Shown here piece after piece: positions 52,865 through 64,000 of a stretch of DNA of 64,000 nt. The stretch covers positions 124,001-188,000 of the forward strand of contig NZ_JAMFLH010000005.1 in NCBI RefSeq assembly GCF_023501975.1, in the 5' to 3' direction. Made by a program: the position numbers and the translations under genes. This DNA comes from Altererythrobacter sp. KTW20L. GTDB lineage: Bacteria; Pseudomonadota; Alphaproteobacteria; Sphingomonadales; Sphingomonadaceae. The first letter of the stretch is position 1, and each line of letters begins with the position of its first letter. The notes under the pieces were generated by a model. The model saw nothing but the letters and a program-made list of their open reading frames with translations, had not been told where the DNA came from and ran no database searches.

Positions 52865-53779
52865 CTAGGCCAGCCTGATCTCGCGCAGCCGCTCCATCAG
52901 GTAATCCTGCGCGGTGATCGGCTCCTCGCCGCCTTCAAACAACGGATCGATTAGGAAATCGGGCCGGAAGTGGAGGAAATAGGGCATCGAATAGCGCGCC
53001 CGGCCAACCGCCTCGCCCGCCGGATTGACCACGCGATGCGTGGTGGAGCGCAGGCGTCCGGCGGTATAGCGTTGCAGCATGTCGCCAATGTTCACCGCCA
53101 GCGCGCCTGGCGGCGGGCTGACCGGCAGCCAGCGGCCATCGCGCGCCAGCAGTTCGAGCCCTGCCTCCTCGGCCCCCAGCAGCAGGGTTATGGCGTTGAT
53201 ATCTTCGTGCGCGGCAGCGCGGATAGCCCCTGCCGGACCACCCTTCACCGGCGGATAGTGCAGCAGCCGCAGGACTGAGTTACCATCGCGCACCGCATCC
53301 TCGAAGAAGTCCTCCTCCTCGCCCAGATAAAGCGCAATTGCCGACAGAATGCGCCGCCCCGTCCAGTCGAAGGCGAGGAACAGGTCCTGCATGACGGGGC
53401 GAAAATCGGAAGGCTCGTCCGGCCACACATTGGGCCGCATCTGGGCGCCATAGCGGTGGCCTGCGGGAAGATCGCGCCCCACGTGCCAGAATTCCTTCAG
53501 ATCCTGCACGGCAGCGCCCTTGGCCTGCTCCACCCCGAACGGCGTATAGCCGCGCGCGCCTGCCTGCCCGGTGCGGTGGTACTGCCGCTTCACATCATCC
53601 GGCAGGGCAAAGAATTGCCGCATCATCTGCTCGGCCCGGTCGATCAGTCCCTGGTCGATCCCGTGGTTCTCCACCACGGCAAAGCCGTAGTCCTCGAACG
53701 AGCGGCCCAGTTCGTCCGCCAGGTCCCGCAGCGGTTTGGCGAGGCTGACGGTTGCGACTTCAGGAGCAATATCTGACAT
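52865..53779 (-). CDS. 2-oxoglutarate/Fe(II)-dependent oxygenase, isopenicillin-N-synthase-like
   Basis: This 304-residue protein is a member of the non-heme iron oxygenase family. Iron ligands are His191 and Asp193 (AHEDINAITLL) and His248 (STTHRVVNP), with Arg262 and Ser264 (RYSMPYF) for the 2-oxoglutarate carboxylate. The N-terminal domain has GFAVVENHGI and ARGYTPFG. Members oxidise small molecules in many pathways, so the substrate is open. ATG 53779 is favoured over a start 12 codons earlier. It is divergent from the LigE-like GST with a 72-base gap, so both may share control. Confidence 0.88.
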   Translation of the reverse strand: MSDIAPEVATVSLAKPLRDLADELGRSFEDYGFAVVENHGIDQGLIDRAEQMMRQFFALPDDVKRQYHRTGQAGARGYTPFGVEQAKGAAVQDLKEFWHVGRDLPAGHRYGAQMRPNVWPDEPSDFRPVMQDLFLAFDWTGRRILSAIALYLGEEEDFFEDAVRDGNSVLRLLHYPPVKGGPAGAIRAAAHEDINAITLLLGAEEAGLELLARDGRWLPVSPPPGALAVNIGDMLQRYTAGRLRSTTHRVVNPAGEAVGRARYSMPYFLHFRPDFLIDPLFEGGEEPITAQDYLMERLREIRLA

Positions 53780-53851: not shown

Positions 53852-54685
53852 ATGGCCGCCAACAACACCATCACCTTCTATGACCTGACCATGGCGCACG
53901 GCGCCACCACCAGCCCCTTCGTCTGGGCCACCAAGTATGCGCTGGCCCACAAGGGCTTCACCATCGACACCGTGCCGGGCGGTTTTACCGGTATCATGGA
54001 ACGCACCGGCGGCATGACCGAGCGGCTGCCGGCCATCGTGGACGATGGGAAATGGGTGCTCGATAGCTGGGGCATCGTTGAATATCTCGACGCCACCTAC
54101 CCTGACCGCCCCATGCTCATCCCGCACGAAAGCGTGGCCGCGCTGACCAAGGCGCTGGATGCCTGGTGGTGGCCCACCGCCGTGGGGCCGTGGATGCGCT
54201 GTTTCTGCGCCGATTACCGCGACCTGTGCTTCGAGCATGACAAGGAATATGTCACCACCAGCCGCGAGAAGATGCTCGGTATGAAGCTGGAGGACATGCA
54301 GGCGGGGCGCGAGGAGCGCCTGCCGCAGATATCCGCCGCGATCGAGCCCTTGCGCATGGCGCTACGCGAGCACCAGTGGCTGGGCGGGAGCGAGCCCAAC
54401 TATGCCGATTACCGCATCCTCGGGCCGATCCTGTTCCTCGCCTCTGTCGGCAAGGTTCCCGCACTGGCCGAGGACGATCCGCTGCGCGACTGGATCGAGC
54501 GGTGCCGTGATCTTTACGGCGGTCTGGGCCGCCATCCCGGCCTGATGAACCTCTATGGCCTCCACGTGCCTGAAGGCGGGCCGGAACCCTATATGCGCGA
54601 AAGCTGGCGCGGCGGGATCTACAAGCGCAATACCGGCCCAGCCTCCACCCGCGCCGAAACCGAACACATCACCACCAAGGATTGA
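53852..54685 (+). CDS. glutathione S-transferase, beta-etherase (LigE)-like
   Basis: This 277-residue GST closely follows the layout I recall for LigE/LigP of Sphingobium, which cleave beta-aryl ether bonds of lignin dimers with glutathione. Shared features are NTITFYDL at the N-terminus, TSPFVWATKYALAHKGF, VPGGFTGIMERTGG, VLDSWGIVEYLD and DRPMLIP, and later LEDMQAGREERLP and DPLRDWI near the C-terminal domain. I cannot run an alignment, so the specific activity is unproven. ATG 53852 has a GAGAGGA ribosome site 11 bases before it. It precedes the hydroxyacid dehydrogenase by 4 bases. Confidence 0.85.
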   Translation: MAANNTITFYDLTMAHGATTSPFVWATKYALAHKGFTIDTVPGGFTGIMERTGGMTERLPAIVDDGKWVLDSWGIVEYLDATYPDRPMLIPHESVAALTKALDAWWWPTAVGPWMRCFCADYRDLCFEHDKEYVTTSREKMLGMKLEDMQAGREERLPQISAAIEPLRMALREHQWLGGSEPNYADYRILGPILFLASVGKVPALAEDDPLRDWIERCRDLYGGLGRHPGLMNLYGLHVPEGGPEPYMRESWRGGIYKRNTGPASTRAETEHITTKD

Positions 54686-54689
54686 CGCA

Positions 54690-55649
54690 TTGCGCATTTT
54701 GATAACCCGCCGCTGGCCGGTCGAGGTCGAGCGAGCCATGGCGGCGCAGTTCGACGTAGTGCTGAACGAGGGCGACAAGCCGCTCTCCCAGGCGGACCTC
54801 GCCGCCGCCATGGGCGAGTTCGACGTGTTGTGCCCCACGGTGTCTGACCGGATCGACGCCGATGTGATCGGAGGCGGCGACCGCGTGAAGCTGATCGCCA
54901 ATTATGGCGTGGGGTTCGACCATATCGATCTCGCCGCCGCGAAGGCCAAGGGCATTGCCGTTACCAACACCCCCGGCGTGCTGACCGATGCCACGGCCGA
55001 CATCGCCATGACGCTGCTGCTGATGGCGGCGCGGCGGGCGGGCGAAGGCGAAAGGGAACTGCGCGCCGGGCAGTGGAGCGGGTGGCGGCCGACGCACCTT
55101 GTCGGCAGCGCGCTTAAAGGCAAGGTGCTCGGCTGTGTCGGCTTCGGGCGGATTGCCCAGGCCACGGCGCGGCGGGCGCACCACGGCTTCGGGATGAAGG
55201 TTGCCTATTACGCGCGGCGGCCAGCCGACGAGGCGGTCGCGCAGGAGTTACAGGCAGAGTTTACGCCTGATCTGATAAACTTGCTGGGCAAAGCTGACTT
55301 TGTTTCTCTCCATGTTCCCGGCGGCGCGGAAACGGCCAGCATGATCGATGCTGCCGCCATCGCAGCGATGAAGCCCGGCTCCTACCTCATCAACACGGCG
55401 CGCGGCGGTGTGGTGGATCATGCAGCGCTGGCGGCAGCGCTCAGGTCAGGCCACCTGGCGGGCGCGGGGCTGGATGTCTATCCGGCAGAACCACAAGTAC
55501 CGGCAGAGTTGCTCGATATCGAAAATGTCGTTTTGTTACCGCACCTTGGCAGCGCCAATTCAGAAACGCGCATAGCCATGGGCATGTGCGCCATGGCCAA
55601 TGTGGAAGAGTTTGCGAAAGGGGCCGAGTTGCCCAACCCCGTTACATGA
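54690..55649 (+). CDS. D-2-hydroxyacid dehydrogenase (glyoxylate/hydroxypyruvate reductase type)
   Basis: This 319-residue NAD(P)H enzyme interconverts 2-oxoacids and D-2-hydroxyacids. The NAD-binding motif is VGFGRIAQATAR, the substrate loop is NYGVGFDHIDL, and the catalytic Arg, Glu and His are in NTARGGVVD, AEPQVP and LLPHLGSA. The start appears to be TTG 54690 (LRILITRRWP), 4 bases after the GST stop; no ATG fits the N-terminus. Its stop overlaps the glycerate kinase start, so reduction of hydroxypyruvate to glycerate is the natural guess. Confidence 0.85.
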   Translation: MRILITRRWPVEVERAMAAQFDVVLNEGDKPLSQADLAAAMGEFDVLCPTVSDRIDADVIGGGDRVKLIANYGVGFDHIDLAAAKAKGIAVTNTPGVLTDATADIAMTLLLMAARRAGEGERELRAGQWSGWRPTHLVGSALKGKVLGCVGFGRIAQATARRAHHGFGMKVAYYARRPADEAVAQELQAEFTPDLINLLGKADFVSLHVPGGAETASMIDAAAIAAMKPGSYLINTARGGVVDHAALAAALRSGHLAGAGLDVYPAEPQVPAELLDIENVVLLPHLGSANSETRIAMGMCAMANVEEFAKGAELPNPVT

Positions 55650-56512
55650 CCATTGATGACCTGATCGCCGCCCACGGCCTGCCAGCCTCCTACCGCGAGG
55701 TGGTGGAGCAATACTGGCAGCCGCTCGCCACGGCGATTGCGCGCCGCACAACCAGCCGTGAACCTCTTATTGCCGGCATCAATGGCGCGCAAGGGTCTGG
55801 AAAATCGACAATTTGCGCTTTCCTCGAAGTGCTGTTGGCAAGCCGCCAGTTGCGCGCCGTAACCCTGTCGATCGATGACCTCTACCTCACCCGCGCCGAG
55901 CGGCAGGCCGTGGCGAGCGAGGTCCATCCGCTGTTCGCCACGCGCGGCGTGCCTGGTACCCATGCGCCGGGCCTGGGCATGGCGATCATCGAACATGTCC
56001 GCGCCCGTCGCAGCTTCGACCTGCCACGGTTCGACAAGGGCACCGATGACCGCAAGCCCGAAGGCGAGCGGATCGAAGGGCCGGTAGACGTGCTCTTGTT
56101 CGAAGGCTGGTGTGTCGGCTGCCACCCGCAGGCCGACGAGGAACTGCTCGATCCGGTGAACGAACTTGAGCGCGACGATGATCCGGACGGTGTCTGGCGC
56201 AGCGTCGTCAACCTGTGGCTGCGCGGCGATTATCGGGTGTTGTTCGACCAGCTCGACATGCTGGTGATGCTTAAGGTCGATGGGTTCGATGCAGTCCTCG
56301 CCAACCGATCCTTGCAGGAAACCAAGCTGCGCGCCGCCGATCCCGCCGCGCCCGGCCTGATGGACGAAGCCGCCATCGCCCGCTTCTGCCAGCATTACGA
56401 ACGCCTGACGCTGCACATGCTGGAAGACTTGCCCCGCCGCGCCGATTTCGTGTTCGACATCGGCGCCGACCAGCGCCCCACATCCCTGCCAGAGGGACTC
56501 GCCAACCGCTGA
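55646..56512 (+). CDS. P-loop kinase, D-glycerate 3-kinase-like
   Basis: This 288-residue kinase has the P-loop GINGAQGSGKST at residues 47-58, then TLSIDDLYLTRAERQ and VLLFEGWCVGC, which match the plant/cyanobacterial-type glycerate kinase (GLYK). This type phosphorylates D-glycerate to 3-phosphoglycerate. It overlaps the 2-hydroxyacid dehydrogenase gene (ATGA), so the pair would turn hydroxypyruvate into a glycolytic intermediate. Uridine-kinase-like enzymes share the fold, so the substrate is likely, not certain. Confidence 0.85.
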   Translation: MTIDDLIAAHGLPASYREVVEQYWQPLATAIARRTTSREPLIAGINGAQGSGKSTICAFLEVLLASRQLRAVTLSIDDLYLTRAERQAVASEVHPLFATRGVPGTHAPGLGMAIIEHVRARRSFDLPRFDKGTDDRKPEGERIEGPVDVLLFEGWCVGCHPQADEELLDPVNELERDDDPDGVWRSVVNLWLRGDYRVLFDQLDMLVMLKVDGFDAVLANRSLQETKLRAADPAAPGLMDEAAIARFCQHYERLTLHMLEDLPRRADFVFDIGADQRPTSLPEGLANR

Positions 56513-56582: not shown

Positions 56583-58688
56583 ATGAGATTGCTTCCGACA
56601 TTGCTGGCAGTGGCAGCGACCTTATCTTTCGCCGCCTGCTCGCAGGGCTCCGAATATGGCGCGGTGGACGAAGCGCGGCTGCTGGCGGCAGAGGACGATT
56701 CCGACAACTGGCTCGCCCACGGGCGCACCTATGCCGAGCAGCGCTTCAGCCCGCTGGCCGACATCAACACCGGTAATATCGGCGAGCTGTCGCTCGCCTA
56801 CGCGGTCGAATTCGATACCAACCGGGGGCAGGAAGCGACCCCCATCGTGGTCGATGGCACGATGTACCTTTCCACCGCCTGGTCCAAGGTCATGGCGGTC
56901 AACGCCGCCACGGGCGATGTGCTGTGGCGCTATGACCCGCAAGTGGACGGAGCCAAGGGCGCCCACGCCTGCTGCGACGTGGTCAACCGCGGCGTGGCGG
57001 TATGGGAAGGCAAGGTCTTTGTCGGCACGATCGACGGGCGGCTGGTCGCATTGGACGCAGCGACGGGCGAGGAGCTGTGGGACGTGGTCACGGTGGACCA
57101 GTCCCAGCCCTATACCGTGACCATGGCCCCGCGCGTGGTACGCGGCAAGGTGATCGTCGGCAATTCGGGCGCGGAAATGGGCGTGCGCGGCTATGTCTCA
57201 GCCTACGATGCCGACAGTGGCGACATGGTCTGGCGGTTCTACACCGTGCCCGGCAACCCGGCGGACGGGCCCGATGGCGCGGCGAGCGACGAGGTCTTTG
57301 AACGCTTCGCAACCGACACCTGGAGCGGTGACTGGTGGGAACTTGGCGGCGGCGGCACGGTGTGGGATTCGGTGGTTTACGATTCCGAGTTCGACCAGTT
57401 GCTGGTGGGCGTCGGCAACGGCAGCCCGTGGAACCACCGCGTGCGCAGCGACGGGCAAGGCGACAACCTGTTCCTCACCTCAATCCTCGCGCTCGATCCC
57501 GATACCGGGGCCTACAAGTGGCATTACCAGCAGAACCCCGGCGAGACATGGGACTATACCGCCACCCAGCAGATGACGCTGGCCGACCTCGAAATCGACG
57601 GCGAGATGCGCAAGGTGATCCTGCAGGCGCCCAAGAACGGGTTCTTCTATGTGATCGACCGGGCGGACGGCACGCTGGTCAGCGCCGAACCCTATACCGA
57701 GCAGACCTGGGCCGAACGGATCGATCTTGAAACCGGCCGCCCGGTGGAACGGCCCGGCGCGCGCTTCGCCGATGCCCCGTTCCTGATCACACCCAGCGGG
57801 CTTGGCGCCCACGCCTGGCAGCCGATGAGCTTCTCGCCGCAGACGGGCCTCGTCTATATCCCCACCATGCAGGTGCCCAGCGCCTATGCCGATGACAGCG
57901 ACTTCGAACGCCACATCGGCCGCTGGAACACCGGGGTATCGTTCCTTGCCCCGCCAGAAGGACTGGTGCCCGGCGCCACGCCCGAAGCGCGCCGCGCCTA
58001 TATGACCGCGCGGACCAAGGGGCGGCTGGTGGCCTGGGATCCCGTGGCTCAGCGCGAGGTCTGGGGGATCGACCGTGACTGGCCGTGGAACGGCGGCACC
58101 CTGGCCACCGGCGGGGGCCTGGTATTCCAGGGCCTGCCCGATGGCCGGTTCAACGCCTATGACGCGACCAGTGGCGCGGAGCTGTGGTCGTTCAAGCAGG
58201 AACGCGGGATCATGGCCGGGCCGATCTCGTTCCGGGCCGACGGCGTGCAATATGTCGCCGTGCTGGCGGGCTATGGCGGATCGATGGGCATGGCCAGCCA
58301 GACCGACTGGATGCGCCGCCCGCCGCCCAATGGCATGCTGCTGGTGTTCCGCATCGGCGGAACTGGCGAGCTTGCGCCCCTGCCGCCGGTCGAGCCCCGG
58401 CCCTATGCCGCCAGCCAGGAAAGCTTCACCGCCGCGCAGGTCGCCATGGGCCAGGGACAGTATTTCGCCTTCTGCACCATCTGCCACAACGGCCCGGTCA
58501 ACCCGGACCTGATGCGCAGCCCTGTCGCCACCGATGCGGCGGCATGGAACGCGGTAGTGATGGACGGCATTCTGGCACAACGCGGCATGATCGCTTTCGC
58601 GCCGTGGATCGATGCGGAACAATCCGAAGCGATCCGCGCCTATGTCCTGACCGAAGCCGCACGGCGGCAAGCAGCGGAGCAGCAATGA
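56583..58688 (+). CDS. PQQ-dependent quinohemoprotein dehydrogenase with C-terminal cytochrome c
   Basis: This 701-residue periplasmic enzyme has an eight-bladed quinoprotein propeller, starting SDNWLAHGRTYAEQRFSPL, and a C-terminal cytochrome c domain. The rare vicinal disulfide pair is Cys130-Cys131 (AHACCDVVNRG). The catalytic Asp is expected near NPGETWDYTATQ. The heme site CTICH is at residues 631-635 with a later Met ligand candidate (ILAQRGMIAF). This is the type II alcohol dehydrogenase layout, which oxidises alcohols or aldehydes and passes electrons through the heme. The signal peptide includes Cys19, but the lipobox is weak. Its stop overlaps the next gene. Confidence 0.93.
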   Translation: MRLLPTLLAVAATLSFAACSQGSEYGAVDEARLLAAEDDSDNWLAHGRTYAEQRFSPLADINTGNIGELSLAYAVEFDTNRGQEATPIVVDGTMYLSTAWSKVMAVNAATGDVLWRYDPQVDGAKGAHACCDVVNRGVAVWEGKVFVGTIDGRLVALDAATGEELWDVVTVDQSQPYTVTMAPRVVRGKVIVGNSGAEMGVRGYVSAYDADSGDMVWRFYTVPGNPADGPDGAASDEVFERFATDTWSGDWWELGGGGTVWDSVVYDSEFDQLLVGVGNGSPWNHRVRSDGQGDNLFLTSILALDPDTGAYKWHYQQNPGETWDYTATQQMTLADLEIDGEMRKVILQAPKNGFFYVIDRADGTLVSAEPYTEQTWAERIDLETGRPVERPGARFADAPFLITPSGLGAHAWQPMSFSPQTGLVYIPTMQVPSAYADDSDFERHIGRWNTGVSFLAPPEGLVPGATPEARRAYMTARTKGRLVAWDPVAQREVWGIDRDWPWNGGTLATGGGLVFQGLPDGRFNAYDATSGAELWSFKQERGIMAGPISFRADGVQYVAVLAGYGGSMGMASQTDWMRRPPPNGMLLVFRIGGTGELAPLPPVEPRPYAASQESFTAAQVAMGQGQYFAFCTICHNGPVNPDLMRSPVATDAAAWNAVVMDGILAQRGMIAFAPWIDAEQSEAIRAYVLTEAARRQAAEQQ

Positions 58689-59953
58689 GCGACATTACCG
58701 AGTTCCGGCCCACAGACGTCCTCATCGTCGGCGCAGGCCCCGTCGGCATGATCACCGCCCTGGCCCTGGCGCAAGCCGGTGCCAGCGTGCGGGTGATCGA
58801 GCGCGAGGGGCAGATCATCAATTCCCCGCGCGCCGCAGTCTATTTCCCCTCCACCCTACTGGTGTTGGAGGAACTGGGCATCCTGGACGAGCTCGACCGG
58901 ATCGGCTTCCGCAACCGCGCCTTCGGCACCCATGTGCCGGAGTTCGATTACCACTCGGTCGTGGTGACCGAGCCGGTCGAGGGTATTGCCTACGATTACC
59001 AGCTCCATGTCGGGCAGCACGATGTGGCGCGGGTGGCGATGGAACATGCGCAGCGCCTCGGCGTGGACGTGCAGTTCGGCTGCGAATTGCACGGCTTCGA
59101 GGAATATGACGATCACATGCTCGCCATGGCGAGTGGCCCCGATGGCGAAGTGACCTACAGCGCCAAATGGATGATCGGCTGTGACGGCGCACGGTCGATG
59201 GTGCGCAAGCTGGCTGGGATCGAATTCGAAGGCCACACCTGGCCCGAACGCTTCGTTGCCACCAACGTGAAGTTCCCCTTCGGCGAACTGGGCTATGAAC
59301 AGGCCAATTTTGTCTGCGATCCGGTTAATATGGCTGTGATTGCCCAGCTTGATACGGCCGGTCTGTGGCGCTGCACCTATATGGAGGATTCCTCCCTGCC
59401 CGAGGAGACTTTCGCCGAGCGTATTCCGCAGCGCTACGAATGGTTCATGCAGGGCCGCACCGATTACGAGGTGGTCTCGGCCAGCCCCTACATGCTTCAC
59501 CAGCGGGCGGGCGAGACCCTGCGCAAGGGGCGCGTGCTGCTGGCAGGCGATGCAGCCCATGCGACCAACCCCTGCGGCGGCCTGGGCCTCACCAGCGGCC
59601 TTTGGACCGGGATCGTCCTGGCCGATGTGCTGGGCGCGGTGCTGAAGGGCGAGGAAGACGCTAGCATCCTTGACCGCTTCAGCGACGAGCGGCGGCGGAT
59701 ATTCTGGGAAGTCGTCACCCCGGCGGCGACCGAGAACAAGCGGATGCTGCAGGAGGCCGACCCAGAACAGCGCCAGAAGGACCTCGGCTTCCTGAAAGCG
59801 CTGGAGGACAATCCCGAAAGCGGCGCGTTGCTGATGCTGTTTGCCTATAAGGTGATCGGTGACGTTCTGCGGCCCAATTCGCGCTGGGCTCACGCCGACC
59901 CGAGCGACCGCGTCGCCATCGACATCAGGAACCGCAAGGGCCAGATTCATTGA
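58685..59953 (+). CDS. FAD-dependent aromatic hydroxylase (PHBH/MhpA-like)
   Basis: This 422-residue flavin monooxygenase would use NAD(P)H and O2 to hydroxylate a substrate, usually a phenolic ring. The FAD-binding GAGPVG is at residues 16-21, the middle DG motif is GCDGARSMVRK, and the GD motif is LLAGDAAHATNPCGGLGLT. It starts at ATG 58685, overlapping the stop of the PQQ enzyme (ATGA), and its own stop overlaps the hydrolase start (TTGA). It lacks the C-terminal thioredoxin-like domain of the long MhpA/PheA enzymes, so it is the shorter type. The substrate is unknown. Confidence 0.9.
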   Translation: MSDITEFRPTDVLIVGAGPVGMITALALAQAGASVRVIEREGQIINSPRAAVYFPSTLLVLEELGILDELDRIGFRNRAFGTHVPEFDYHSVVVTEPVEGIAYDYQLHVGQHDVARVAMEHAQRLGVDVQFGCELHGFEEYDDHMLAMASGPDGEVTYSAKWMIGCDGARSMVRKLAGIEFEGHTWPERFVATNVKFPFGELGYEQANFVCDPVNMAVIAQLDTAGLWRCTYMEDSSLPEETFAERIPQRYEWFMQGRTDYEVVSASPYMLHQRAGETLRKGRVLLAGDAAHATNPCGGLGLTSGLWTGIVLADVLGAVLKGEEDASILDRFSDERRRIFWEVVTPAATENKRMLQEADPEQRQKDLGFLKALEDNPESGALLMLFAYKVIGDVLRPNSRWAHADPSDRVAIDIRNRKGQIH

Positions 59954-61047
59954 GCGCTACCGGGAGCAAGTCATACCGCCCGGCGGACCTCCACGCAGCG
60001 GGGCGCGCACGGCCGCTGGAACTGGCGGCGCAGGGCTTTTTCTGGACCGGCGGCGAACTTGTCGATCATCCGCAAGCCGGCAAGGCCATGCGCGGGCAGC
60101 AGTATGTCGAGTACTGGATCCCGCTGGTCCTGCAGCACGAATTGCCCATCGTGATGATCCACGGCGGCGGCGGCCAGGGAACCGATTTCCTCGGCACGCC
60201 CGATGGCCGCGAAGGGTGGGTCCACTGGTTCGTGCGGGCGGGCTGGCCGGTCTATGTGGTGGACCGCCCGCAACATGGCCGCAGTCCGTTCAACCCCGAA
60301 TTCCAGGGCGCGATGGCGAGGCCGGGGCCAACCATGTTCCTCGAACGGCTGTTCACCCGGCCGGGCGACTTTGCCGACAACTATCCGCAGGCCAGCCTGC
60401 ACAGCCAGTGGCCGGGCACGGGCAGGATGGACGATCCGGCGTTCCTCGCCTTCCTCGCCGGAACGGGGCCGACGCTGGCCGATCCCGCGCAGTGGCAAGC
60501 CGATGCGCAAGCCGCCGGGGCTGAAATGCTCGACCGCATCGGCCCGGCGATCCTGCTGACCCATTCAGCGGGCGGGCCCTGCGGTTGGCTGATTGCCGAT
60601 GCGCGGCCCGACCTTGTCCGCGCCATCGTCGCGGCAGAACCGCTCGGTCCGCCGTTCGAGGCAATCAGCGGCACCCTGCCCTTTGGCATCACCCACGCCC
60701 CGCTCACGTTCGATCCGCTGCTGCAAGCGGGGGAGAAACTGGCGAGCATGGACCTGCCCTCGCCCGGCCCCGGTCTCGTGCCCTACAAGGTACAGGCCGA
60801 GCCCGCCCGCCGCCTGCCCGCGCTGGCAGACAAGCCGGTTATGGTTCTGACCGCCGAAGCAAGCTGGATGGCAGCAGACAACCATGCGATTGTCCATTTC
60901 CTGCGGCAGGCAGGGGCCAGCGTCGATCATGTGCGGCTGGAGGAACACGGAGCGCGCGGCAATGGCCATGCCATGCAACTGGAAGCCAACAGCGACGATG
61001 TTGCGGCGGTAATTGCCTGCTGGCTTGCCGATCAGGGGTTGAAATAG
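59950..61047 (+). CDS. alpha/beta hydrolase
   Basis: This 365-residue hydrolase has an oxyanion-type HGGGG at residues 71-75, the nucleophile Ser206 in THSAGGP, and a catalytic His candidate at 340 (ARGNGHAMQ). The C-terminal pattern GNGHAMQLEANSDD is seen in a family of esterases of unknown substrate. It starts at TTG 59950, overlapping the FAD hydroxylase stop as TTGA, so the two proteins are made together. It might cleave an ester or a C-C bond in the product of the hydroxylase. The role is inferred from order only. Confidence 0.88.
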   Translation: MSATGSKSYRPADLHAAGRARPLELAAQGFFWTGGELVDHPQAGKAMRGQQYVEYWIPLVLQHELPIVMIHGGGGQGTDFLGTPDGREGWVHWFVRAGWPVYVVDRPQHGRSPFNPEFQGAMARPGPTMFLERLFTRPGDFADNYPQASLHSQWPGTGRMDDPAFLAFLAGTGPTLADPAQWQADAQAAGAEMLDRIGPAILLTHSAGGPCGWLIADARPDLVRAIVAAEPLGPPFEAISGTLPFGITHAPLTFDPLLQAGEKLASMDLPSPGPGLVPYKVQAEPARRLPALADKPVMVLTAEASWMAADNHAIVHFLRQAGASVDHVRLEEHGARGNGHAMQLEANSDDVAAVIACWLADQGLK

Positions 61048-61123
61048 TTTTCCAACAGAACGATTAAGATACAAATGAATCGCGCGGCAACAGCTGCGAT
61101 TCTCTCGGGGAGACGACAGGAAA

Positions 61124-63079
61124 ATGCGCAAAATCACCGGACTGGCGCTTTGTGCCGCCTTGTTGGCCACAGCATCGATCGGGCCGCTGATGGCACAGGG
61201 CGTGGCCGAGGGCGACTGGCCGCTCTATGCGCGCGACCACGCGGGCCAGCGCTATTCGCCGATGACCGATATCAATCGCGACACCGTGGGCCAGCTCGAA
61301 CGGGCATGGACCATGCAGTTAAGGCCGGAAGGCGGCGCTGCGATCCTTGCAGGTACGGTGCCGGTCGTGATCGAAGGCGTGATGTATCTGCCGTTGGGCA
61401 ATTCGGTCGTGGCGCTGGAAGCCGACAGCGGCCGCGAAATCTGGCGCCACCAGATCGCGCAAGGCACGGCGCGGCGCCACGTCGCATGGTGGCCGGGTGA
61501 TGGCGAGCTTGGTCCGCGCCTGTTCTACAACCCCGGCAACAGCATCGTGGCACTCGATTCACGCACGGGCGCAATCGACCGTTCCTTTGCCGACAATGGC
61601 GTGCTGACGTGGGACGGGGCAAGCTATCCTTATCCCCCCAGCATTTTCCGCGACACTCTGGTGATCGGTGCATGGACGCCAGAAGTCTCGGTGGCCGGGC
61701 CAGAGGGCGATGGTGACAGCCGCGCCTTCGATGCGCGCACCGGGGCGTTCAAGTGGCGCTTCAACACCATTCCCCATGCGGGCGAACCGGGTAACGAAAC
61801 CTGGCCGGAAGACGGCTGGCAGGGCCGCCCGGGTGCAAACATGTGGATCTGGTACACCACCGCCGATGTCGAAACCGGCATGCTCTACATGACGCTGGGC
61901 AGCCCCGGCCCGAACTATTGGGGCGGTGACCGGGCGGGCGACAACCTCTATGCCAACTCGCTGGTCGCGGTCGATATCGAGACCGGCGAATACCGCTGGC
62001 ATTTCCAGGCGATCCATCACGAGTTGTGGGACTGGGACCTGCCCGCCCCGCCGGTGCTGGTTGACGTGACGCAGGACGGTGCGACAGTTCCGGCCCTGTC
62101 GCTGACCGGCAAGAACGGACTGATGTACATCCTCAACCGCCAGACCGGGGAGCCGATCCACGGGGTGAACGAGATGCTGGTGGCGCGCGGCGACGTACCG
62201 GGCGAATGGTACAGCCCCACCCAGCCGTTCCCGGTCAAGCCCGAGCCGCTCAACCGGATGACCTGGACGCCCGATGACGTGGTCACCGAGGACGATACCA
62301 ACGCTGCCCACGTCGCCGCCTGCCACGCGCTGCTGGATAGCTATGGCGGCCTGTTCTTCAATGCCGGGCCGTTTACCCCGTTCTTCCTGCACAAGGAAGG
62401 CGACCCGCCGCGCGCATCGATCAATATGCCGCACAACGGCGGGTCTGTGTGGGGCGGCAGCTCGGCCGATCCCACCACCGGAATGGTCTATATCAACATC
62501 ACCGAAGGGGGCTCGATCGGCTGGATCGAGGAGCGCGATCCCGATGGCAACTATGGCAGCGGGACCGATGGCTCGGTCCAGCCCTATGACCGCGGCAGCC
62601 TGACCGGCCCCGGGGCCTATTCCGGCTTTCTGGCCAGCTTCACCGGCGACGATGGCCGCCGCGTAACCCTGCCCTGCATCCGTCCGCCGTGGGGCCGGAT
62701 GATCGCAGTCGATGCCAGTACCGGCGAGATTGCCTGGGCGACCAGGCTCGGCACTTCGCCACAGCTGGAAGAGGGCAAGCGCGATACAGGGGCCAACAAT
62801 TCGGCCGGCGGGTCGATGGTCACGGCAGGTGGCCTGGTCTTCATCGGCGCGACCAGCGACGGGATCTTCCGCGCCTTCGATGCCGACAACGGCGAAGTGG
62901 TGTGGGAAGACCAACTCGACTATACCACCAACACTATTCCGATGACCTATCGCGGGGCGGACGGTCGGCAGTATATTGCCGCCCTTGCCACGGGAAATAC
63001 GGCCATGGGATCGCCGCGAAACGAGAGCGGCGCCCCGGCCAACCAGGAAAGCCTGATCGTGTGGGCCCTGCCGCAATAG
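61124..63079 (+). CDS. PQQ-dependent dehydrogenase, glucose/quinate dehydrogenase type
   Basis: This 651-residue protein has a signal peptide (ending PLMAQ) and a full quinoprotein propeller, beginning GDWPLYARDHAGQRYSPM. There is no heme motif, so electrons must go to a separate acceptor or to quinone. HHELWDWDLPAPP resembles the HHDxWDxDVPAQP segment of membrane glucose and quinate dehydrogenases, but the N-terminal membrane domain of those enzymes is missing. No adjacent Cys pair is seen. It follows the hydrolase by 76 bases with AGGAAA before the start codon. Its partner could be the cytochrome domain of the first PQQ enzyme. Confidence 0.9.
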   Translation: MRKITGLALCAALLATASIGPLMAQGVAEGDWPLYARDHAGQRYSPMTDINRDTVGQLERAWTMQLRPEGGAAILAGTVPVVIEGVMYLPLGNSVVALEADSGREIWRHQIAQGTARRHVAWWPGDGELGPRLFYNPGNSIVALDSRTGAIDRSFADNGVLTWDGASYPYPPSIFRDTLVIGAWTPEVSVAGPEGDGDSRAFDARTGAFKWRFNTIPHAGEPGNETWPEDGWQGRPGANMWIWYTTADVETGMLYMTLGSPGPNYWGGDRAGDNLYANSLVAVDIETGEYRWHFQAIHHELWDWDLPAPPVLVDVTQDGATVPALSLTGKNGLMYILNRQTGEPIHGVNEMLVARGDVPGEWYSPTQPFPVKPEPLNRMTWTPDDVVTEDDTNAAHVAACHALLDSYGGLFFNAGPFTPFFLHKEGDPPRASINMPHNGGSVWGGSSADPTTGMVYINITEGGSIGWIEERDPDGNYGSGTDGSVQPYDRGSLTGPGAYSGFLASFTGDDGRRVTLPCIRPPWGRMIAVDASTGEIAWATRLGTSPQLEEGKRDTGANNSAGGSMVTAGGLVFIGATSDGIFRAFDADNGEVVWEDQLDYTTNTIPMTYRGADGRQYIAALATGNTAMGSPRNESGAPANQESLIVWALPQ

Positions 63080-63102
63080 GGCGCACCAAGGGAGAGAAGA
63101 CT

Positions 63103-64000
63103 ATGAACCGCAAGATTACTTTCGCACTCACGACCGCGATGCTCGCCCTGGCCGCACCGGCCACGGCGCAGGATACGATCACCACGCCCGAAGGCGCCGT
63201 GATGCAAAGCGGCGCGGACCTGGCCTATGCTCCGGGCGAGCTGACCGATGCACAGCTTAACGGCAGCGCCGGGCACCTGTTCATCCAGGATTCGATGAAC
63301 GTGTTCCGCCGCTTCCCGCGTGAAGCGACCGAGCAGATGGTCAACTTCTACGTCAACGCATTGGGCCTGCGCTCGCTCAACCCGATCCAGCTGACCAGCA
63401 CCCAGCAGATGATCCTGACCGGTGTGGGTAGCGGGCAGGTCAAGCTCTCGGCCGGACAACTGGGCAATCGCACCTACAACCTCGACGGCGGCTATGCCGG
63501 GGGCACCGGTATCCGGTTCTTCATGTTCACCTATCCCGATCCCGCCGTGGTGACGCAGCGCTTCACCGATGCCGGGTTCCCCGCGCCCGAATTCGTCGCG
63601 CGCGGCGATGGCTCGAGCCAGGCGCTGGTGCGCGATCCTGGCGGGTTCGACGTGGTGATCGTGACCCGCCCCGGTGCGGCGGACAATTCGGACGATGGCG
63701 TGGGCGTGGGCATCCATGTATCCGACCTGGAGGAAAGCCGCAGGTTCTATCGCGAGTTCGTGGGCCTGGAGGAGCTTCCCGCAATGGAGGCACCGCTGAT
63801 GGGCGCAACGTTCCATCCCTATCGCCACGGCGAAACCACGGTGATGCTCTACAAGATGGGCGATAACCTGCCGGTCGATAACGGCAGCGCGGGCATCCAG
63901 TACGTGGTCAGCGACGCGCCCTATGTCGCGGCCATGGGCGCGCACCGCGATGTGGAAGTGCAGACCCCGCTCAACAAGATGGCCGGGTTCGACTTGGTCA
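63103..64000 (+). CDS. exported tandem-VOC protein, 5' part only
   Basis: The gene runs off the right edge with about 299 codons visible. It begins with a signal peptide (MNRKITFALTTAMLALAAPA then TAQ). The mature part has two vicinal-oxygen-chelate-like modules: the first around HLFIQDSMNVFRRF and VNFYVNALGLRSL, the second around GVGIHVSDLEESRRFYREFV. VOC proteins are usually cytosolic (glyoxalase, extradiol dioxygenase), so a secreted one is unusual. GGAGAGAAG is well placed before ATG 63103, 23 bases after the second PQQ gene, so it belongs to the operon. It may bind or transform the substrate in the periplasm. Confidence 0.85.
   Translation, partial: MNRKITFALTTAMLALAAPATAQDTITTPEGAVMQSGADLAYAPGELTDAQLNGSAGHLFIQDSMNVFRRFPREATEQMVNFYVNALGLRSLNPIQLTSTQQMILTGVGSGQVKLSAGQLGNRTYNLDGGYAGGTGIRFFMFTYPDPAVVTQRFTDAGFPAPEFVARGDGSSQALVRDPGGFDVVIVTRPGAADNSDDGVGVGIHVSDLEESRRFYREFVGLEELPAMEAPLMGATFHPYRHGETTVMLYKMGDNLPVDNGSAGIQYVVSDAPYVAAMGAHRDVEVQTPLNKMAGFDLV

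Follow-up and report, generated by a model that had tools for sequence, protein, structure and literature searches.

Introduction

In the beta-aryl-ether pathway of Sphingobium SYK-6 and Novosphingobium aromaticivorans, LigD, LigL, LigN and LigO, LigE, LigF and LigP, BaeAB and LigG act, followed by HpvZ or HpvY, and the side-chain oxidations are catalyzed by NAD or flavin enzymes. Elsewhere, enzymes dependent on pyrroloquinoline quinone (PQQ) oxidize polyvinyl alcohol outside the cytoplasm. The flavin adenine dinucleotide (FAD) monooxygenases PnpA (4-nitrophenol 4-monooxygenase) and HspB (6-hydroxy-3-succinoylpyridine 3-monooxygenase) exchange a para substituent for a hydroxyl group, PnpA releasing nitrite and HspB the succinoyl chain of an aryl ketone. 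Here we analyze a gene row of Altererythrobacter sp. KTW20L, located in a stretch of 64,000 nucleotides (the window; bases 124001–188000 of contig C31, genome size 3.09 Mb), that joins a LigE-type beta-etherase, PQQ dehydrogenases, an FAD monooxygenase (FMO), a hydrolase and an exported tandem vicinal oxygen chelate (VOC) protein. We consider it reasonably probable that this row and its rightward continuation form one catabolic system for lignin-type aryl-ether or arylpropane fragments. The system resembles the SYK-6 pathway in its LigE- and LigF-type beta-etherases, its likely side-chain alcohol oxidation and its sphingomonad host, but differs in that LigE is tied here to five PQQ dehydrogenases, to cytochromes, and to exported proteins of VOC and uncharacterized kinds.

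According to a study on N. aromaticivorans F199, the enzymes downstream of vanilloyl acetic acid have still to be found, and what becomes of the one-ring products of beta-ether cleavage is named as a gap (PMC11837543). Pseudomonas SG-MS2 breaks down pinoresinol partly via methoxyhydroquinone (PMC12607616); this route starts with a flavocytochrome, whereas the row in the window has LigE and PQQ enzymes. Saro_2870, a putative PQQ-dependent aldehyde dehydrogenase of N. aromaticivorans, was assayed as well, but this is a single gene, and in the accessible sections the enzymes given as active on the beta-5 aldehyde do not include it (PMC11323797). The accessible sections of PMC6369299, PMC12997858 and PMC10866074 do not mention PQQ, and among the titles and abstract openings on beta-etherases or lignin together with PQQ enzymes, with subscription papers mostly outside this set, we found no account of the cluster.

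Results

The initial annotation of the window had singled out five tightly packed genes on one strand, two for PQQ dehydrogenases (one with its own cytochrome) and the others for an FAD hydroxylase, a hydrolase and a tandem-VOC protein. The layout is borne out by direct reading of the overlaps ATGA (58685–58688) and TTGA (59950–59953), the remaining gaps being 76 (hydrolase–PQQ2) and 23 bases (PQQ2–VOC), and the gene kinds by Pfam and profile matches. The frame of five genes was too narrow: the same-strand unit begins 2.7 kb earlier and includes three extra genes upstream of PQQ1. Scans for promoters and terminators gave no more matches than shuffled sequence. The unit comprises the following genes:

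53852..54685, plus strand: LigE-type beta-etherase (a glutathione S-transferase, GST), heading the unit; NCBIfam NF042997, PDB 4yam
54690..55649, plus strand: D-isomer 2-hydroxyacid dehydrogenase (Pfam 2-Hacid_dh); start uncertain, TTG at 54690 or 54699
55646..56512, plus strand: D-glycerate-3-kinase-like kinase; PDB 6ckg, 7xpc
56583..58688, plus strand: PQQ1, type II quinohemoprotein alcohol dehydrogenase with C-terminal cytochrome c; TIGR03075, PDB 1kv9
58685..59953, plus strand: FMO of the PnpA/HspB group; PDB 6ain, 7da9; Pfam FAD_binding_3
59950..61047, plus strand: alpha/beta hydrolase (Pfam Abhydrolase_1 and _6); its TTG start overlaps the FMO stop
61124..63079, plus strand: PQQ2, PQQ dehydrogenase without cytochrome (Pfam PQQ, 508 bits); HHELWD motif
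63103..64086, plus strand, extending 86 bases beyond the window end at 64000: exported tandem-VOC protein (Pfam Glyoxalase)

The LigE-type protein lies over the curated cut-off of the equivalog model NF042997 (501.9 bits; cut-off 440) and aligns over its full length, residues 1–267 of 276, with the solved beta-etherase 4yam (347 bits). Because the unit begins with a LigE-type beta-etherase, the row is best filed beside beta-aryl-ether catabolism; the earlier remark that no named pathway was known for this set does not hold as it stands, a described pathway being close by. The genome also holds the LigF kind of beta-etherase, since the product of G000:C33:11566-12270 matches solved LigF at 324 bits (next match 55); its ortholog in genome G014 is 89% identical. 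Our scan with a LigF-like GST at E 1e-40 passed over this gene because the query itself scores only 133 bits to LigF; at that limit it returned nothing in G000, G014, G008 and G079, and at a looser limit relatives in all four. Of the two genes that follow LigE, the first encodes a dehydrogenase whose nearest model is glyoxylate reductase NF009714 (285 bits, under the cut-off of 455) and the second a kinase whose best PDB matches are the D-glycerate 3-kinases 6ckg (68 bits) and 7xpc (59 bits), with no Pfam match. Spacing is tight in this part as well, with 4 or 13 bases between LigE and dehydrogenase (by choice of TTG), a 4-base overlap of dehydrogenase and kinase, and 70 bases between kinase and PQQ1.

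PQQ1 scores 645 bits against TIGR03075 (cut-off 480) and 694 bits against 1kv9, matched over the full length including the cytochrome, and carries the vicinal CC at residue 130 and CxxCH at residue 631 of a type II quinohemoprotein alcohol dehydrogenase; what sets it apart from 1kv9 is its place in an aromatic gene row of a genome without pqqC. For PQQ2 the closest model is that of the glucose/quinate/shikimate group, TIGR03074, at 347 bits and under the cut-off of 833. It had been suggested to look right of position 64000, and there the VOC gene runs on to 64086 and three more PQQ dehydrogenases follow. After VOC come an opposite-strand cytochrome c, a small CxxCH protein (by eye) and a HupE/UreJ protein, then a protein whose N-terminus has a membrane stretch (by eye), PQQ3, SecA, SecB and SecC (like similar labels, our own gene names), a carboxylesterase and a cytochrome–PQQ fusion. 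Further right lie an opposite-strand gene for a DUF6644 protein, PQQ5, one more exported protein, a DUF6152 protein and an esterase; still further are PnpD (PF18191), a small neighbor that we assign as PnpC, and an aldehyde dehydrogenase. Neither DUF6152 nor DUF6644 has an assigned function, and our literature search found no paper naming DUF6152. The cluster thus encodes five PQQ dehydrogenases, and contig C5 of this genome one more. An Asp-bearing motif, which we take to be catalytic, is kept in PQQ2, PQQ3, PQQ4 and PQQ5. The window was said to contain no PQQ synthesis gene; this is correct and holds for pqqC genome-wide, where no match was found at E 0.001, and no pqqE over cut-off was found in the genome either (best 49 bits, cut-off 381). 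Among the family genomes introduced below, pqqC occurs in 7 of 199, over cut-off in 6 of them.

To what extent the order is kept elsewhere was analyzed by a contig scan with the FMO as query, which yielded 21 loci from other genomes onto which 30 proteins of our own region were mapped; loci without FMO could not appear among the 21 since the query was the FMO, and several of the contigs recur among the family genomes (e.g., L016 = G014, L032 = G066). The initial annotation would have been refuted had the order been kept nowhere else, yet the full five-gene order is present at 9/21 loci (L016, L017, L020, L021, L022, L024, L026, L028, and L023, where the contig start cuts the first gene) and agrees up to the contig end at another three (L018, L019, L027). 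Four loci carry FMO and hydrolase without a PQQ gene in the stretch (L029, L031, L032, L036, with L031 cut soon after), and at two (L030, L033) the FMO occurs without hydrolase, a distant PQQ1 relative (37–38%) lying about 5 kb off on the other strand. The 16 PQQ-linked FMOs, from 15 loci and the window, form one side of a branch with 99/99 support; since they do so, the FMO and the PQQ row may well have been joined in a single event. The nearest named FMO relative, with 89% identity, is that of Alteraurantiacibacter aquimixticola (L016), and the G014 cluster is collinear with ours through the FadL gene, without the esterase.

Co-occurrence was assessed in 199 genomes of the family, sampled evenly from a larger set, with E limits of 1e-20 for the hydrolase, 1e-60 for FMO and for LigE, 1e-30 for VOC and 1e-40 for the LigF-like GST. 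The hydrolase was found in 8 genomes, FMO in 15 (9 at at least 49% identity), PnpD in 8, LigE in 27, the LigF-like GST in 24, and VOC in 20, five of these 20 at only 47–53%; the 20 genomes with VOC are termed core genomes. LigE was present in 20/20 core genomes versus 7/179 others (by genus, 9/9 versus 4/87), and in 12/12 versus 7/179 after removal of the 8 genomes in which the two are adjacent. Likewise, a LigF-like GST was present in 16/20 core genomes compared with 8/179 others. Genomes with an FMO of at least 49% identity had VOC in 8/9 cases versus 12/190 (6/7 versus 12/190 minus the linked G000 and G014) and PnpD in 6/9 versus 2/190 (by genus, 4/5 versus 2/91). The core spans 9 genera, often with cytochromes adjacent, and of 337 genomes sampled across the class, 3 had VOC, each belonging to the same genus as the window.

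The surroundings of VOC were read in 17 of the 18 VOC genomes besides G000 and G014; the one excluded was G034, whose matches sit on contig ends or scraps. PQQ2 directly precedes VOC in 17/17 and the opposite-strand cytochrome follows in 16/17, while PQQ3 lies beyond VOC in 13/17, the remaining four being among the distant VOC genomes. LigE, dehydrogenase and kinase stand before PQQ2–VOC in 6/17, three of these with PQQ1 between, and FMO occurred in none of the 17 stretches. The LigE–dehydrogenase–kinase triad recurs at 12 of the 20 LigE loci examined (out of 38 matches, own included), even far from the core; at 2/20 there is a more distant dehydrogenase and at 6/20 neither partner. The row is thus a mosaic of a PQQ–VOC core, an alcohol dehydrogenase, an FMO–hydrolase pair and a LigE triad. 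Of the original interpretation, the conserved catabolic order and an aromatic (ether) substrate are retained, whereas the idea of a single indivisible five-gene pathway was dropped, the PQQ2–VOC core and the FMO–hydrolase pair each standing apart elsewhere.

By a wide margin the solved sequences nearest to the FMO are PnpA (6ain, 282 bits) and HspB (7da9, 257 bits), the third scoring only 108; the three proteins are of like length (422, 418 and 393 residues for FMO, PnpA and HspB), but here the neighbors are PQQ dehydrogenases and a hydrolase. It is from these relatives and the co-occurrence with PnpCD that we infer the reaction type of the FMO; our literature search on aryl ketone monooxygenases yielded nothing useful. 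The top solved matches of the hydrolase are 4q34 (uncharacterized, 69 bits) and 1qlw (an esterase, 59 bits). The candidate ring-cleaving enzyme is encoded on the same contig:

85.1–86.6 kb in window numbering, outside the window: hydroquinone 1,2-dioxygenase PnpCD (PF18191, 155 bits for PnpD)

PnpC, which has no Pfam or NCBIfam match, was assigned by position and by a homologue beside PnpD at 8/8 PnpD loci (own included). The PnpC/PnpD genes adjoin a fused LigA–LigB dioxygenase in L153 and a PQQ3 relative (65%) in L150, are present without FMO or core in G017, and in G014 lie, together with the aldehyde dehydrogenase, on a contig other than that of the cluster. In L029, the FMO–hydrolase pair is preceded by a thiamine diphosphate enzyme over the NF004807 cut-off and followed by DUF6152 matches and two GSTs, the first having LigF as its best match (133 bits, next 70); a GST follows the FMO–hydrolase pair in three loci read (L029, L036, G136). 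More remotely, a plasmid of Massilia putida carries a 42% FMO relative with an alpha/beta hydrolase and annotated hydroxyquinol dioxygenases about 5.5 kb away, and close to a relative in Agrobacterium lie genes for a hydrolase, a protein with a GST domain and a VOC protein.

Export of the VOC protein is predicted from a signal-like N-terminus, by eye. A predicted model of its relative in L023, the nearest full-length VOC fetched, has a mean pLDDT of 81.1 and, by our own reading of the secondary structure, four strand-helix-strands modules; plant glyoxalase I and GLOD4 ranked top in Foldseek, so that the model points to a glyoxalase shape of two module pairs. The conserved His/Glu metal ligands expected of a metal-dependent member are lacking in that no His is invariant in an alignment of 13 sequences, and because of this a role as metal dioxygenase (PcpA-like; 4huz, Foldseek rank 10) was dropped. 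The second exported family is that of the Sec-type proteins:

L004:5848-9226 (68847–72228 in window numbering): SecA, SecB and SecC, three paralogous exported proteins

SecA, SecB and SecC have no Pfam or NCBIfam match; a YACHEGNVQ motif is invariant in 11 relatives of this type. The predicted model is poor (mean pLDDT 52.5); its best part is similar to small barrel-shaped carriers of hydrophobic ligands, and a fold search gave a best E of 3.9e-4 with FABP/CRABP among the matches, too weak for a claim. Contig C5 of this genome carries a 652-residue frame (L164:10562-12520) that fuses a VOC half, 66% identical to the window's VOC, to a Sec half, 66% identical to SecA. The fusion is preceded by a PQQ2 paralog (64%) and by a gene that looks MarR-like (by eye), and past a small gene lies one resembling a TonB receptor (by eye). 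Because the two exported families are naturally fused in one frame, they probably act together.

Some observations concern neighbors and relatives of the unit. The gene that diverges from LigE is the following:

52865..53779, minus strand: 2-oxoglutarate-Fe(II) oxygenase (Pfam); membership in the system unsure

An oxygenase of this type adjoins the LigE gene in 7/21 FMO loci. The LigE-type GST at L021:5151-5978 is 96% identical to that of the window, the other mapped cluster proteins there being 51–87% identical, an excess that may reflect recent transfer or conversion of this one gene. In each of G147, G079, G069 and G193, two FMO paralogs (38–47%) lie 4 to 5 kb from each other. At the paralog loci L155/G147, L156/G079 and L157/G066, the neighbors are, as we presume from their sequences, of the major facilitator superfamily (MFS), TonB and carboxymuconolactone-decarboxylase-like kinds, and such a locus is perhaps another aromatic route.

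Discussion

The link to lignin rests on the curated LigE model, the LigF in the genome and the co-occurrence data. If it is right, the periplasmic PQQ dehydrogenases would oxidize side-chain alcohols and pass the electrons on to the cluster's cytochromes c, while the exported VOC protein and the paralogous exported proteins would bind the aromatic substrate and hand it over rather than act as canonical metal VOC enzymes. In the cytoplasm, LigE together with LigF, encoded elsewhere, would cleave the beta-ether bond. In lineages that carry both FMO and hydrolase, the FMO would hydroxylate the side-chain carbon (ipso position) of a para-phenol or aryl ketone, so that a (methoxy)hydroquinone and a short fragment of the side chain are released, with the hydrolase acting next to it on an ester or lactone, and PnpCD and the aldehyde dehydrogenase would open and oxidize the ring. 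The dehydrogenase and kinase downstream of LigE may carry the C3 fragment to glycerate, as the gene neighborhood suggests. Periplasmic oxidation combined with cytosolic hydroxylation, as envisaged at the outset, is accordingly a likely layout in terms of gene products, the order of steps in the cell being our proposal.

Several points weigh against this assignment. Gene content, order, families and co-occurrence are observed, but every reaction, substrate and location has been deduced from them. The co-occurrence (Fisher) tests ignore phylogeny except for the genus collapse, are uncorrected for several tests, and include some genomes that are near kin; LigE and the core could also share a habitat rather than a pathway. 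In both G000 and G014, the LigF gene lies away from the core, on another contig among housekeeping-like genes (by eye), and a search for the C-alpha dehydrogenase gave as best match a short-chain dehydrogenase/reductase with 40% identity to a query that we take to be LigD-like. The hydrolase is missing from the otherwise conserved order at 3/21 FMO loci (L025, L034, L035; 3/15 of those linked to PQQ genes), 12/20 core genomes are without an FMO at 49% identity, and pqqC is present in 0/20 core genomes and absent from G014. Finally, the neighbors of a 52% FMO relative located on a Sphingobium plasmid (a cytochrome P450, a semialdehyde dehydrogenase, a CoA-transferase, MFS and TonB) do not point to lignin.

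The scarcity of the FMO among core genomes would be readily explained if the FMO–hydrolase pair were a module of its own, acquired once by the PQQ row and serving to degrade some other para-substituted phenol (an alkylphenol, a 4-hydroxybenzoate-like acid or a nitrophenol), sharing transcription but no pathway with LigE and the PQQ core. The pair without PQQ neighbors (4/21 loci), the FMO without hydrolase (2/21) and the position of all 16 PQQ-linked FMOs on one side of the 99/99 branch are in line with such a history. We nevertheless regard it as unlikely, although worth serious attention, since the co-occurrence of FMO and core persists where the two are unlinked (6/7 versus 12/190), the other context of the pair also has a LigF-like GST, and 12/15 PQQ-linked loci keep the order as far as visible. 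A different doubt concerns the core itself, which might oxidize another natural product (a terpenoid, a polyol, an algal phenolic or a polyester-type compound) and travel with LigE since both serve on plant or algal debris. Neither the two exported esterases nor the exported family without Pfam match point to lignin, and the DUF6152 and DUF6644 proteins of the continuation leave room for other chemistry; yet LigE is present in all 20 core genomes and adjoins the core in 8, the LigF-like GST is concentrated in core genomes (16/20 versus 8/179), and this genome has a LigF, so that we deem such a substrate quite improbable. The lack of pqqC in this genome, in G014 and in every core genome, along with a pqqE match under cut-off, bears on the activity of the PQQ proteins in nature: they might be mostly idle for want of PQQ, or protect against toxic alcohols and aldehydes instead of supplying carbon. 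Given that the core is kept in 9 genera, often beside cytochromes, and that the presumably catalytic Asp motif is kept in PQQ2 to PQQ5, we think this very unlikely. As pqqC is absent from the genome and from all 20 core genomes, the PQQ dehydrogenases appear to depend on outside PQQ; this pattern of gene absence is consistent with PQQ auxotrophy, and most likely PQQ is taken up from outside the cell.

The lignin-fragment system proposed here could be extended to a periplasm-first version of beta-ether catabolism, in which the PQQ enzymes and exported carriers oxidize the substrate outside the cytoplasm, LigE and LigF cut it, the FMO removes the whole oxidized C3 chain from the ring to leave (methoxy)hydroquinone, the row's own dehydrogenase and kinase convert this chain to 3-phosphoglycerate, and PQQ is taken from other organisms. 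In this full form the scheme is speculative, and we would rate it as doubtful.

Conclusions

The analysis suggests that the cluster is a little-known branch of bacterial lignin-fragment breakdown. A conserved combination of LigE, PQQ dehydrogenases, an ipso-type FMO and hydroquinone cleavage would supply named genes for the gap concerning the fate of one-ring products. If the assignment is true, it adds a quinoprotein-based and PQQ-sharing layer to bacterial lignin catabolism, and it would provide a first role for an exported protein family without Pfam or NCBIfam match.

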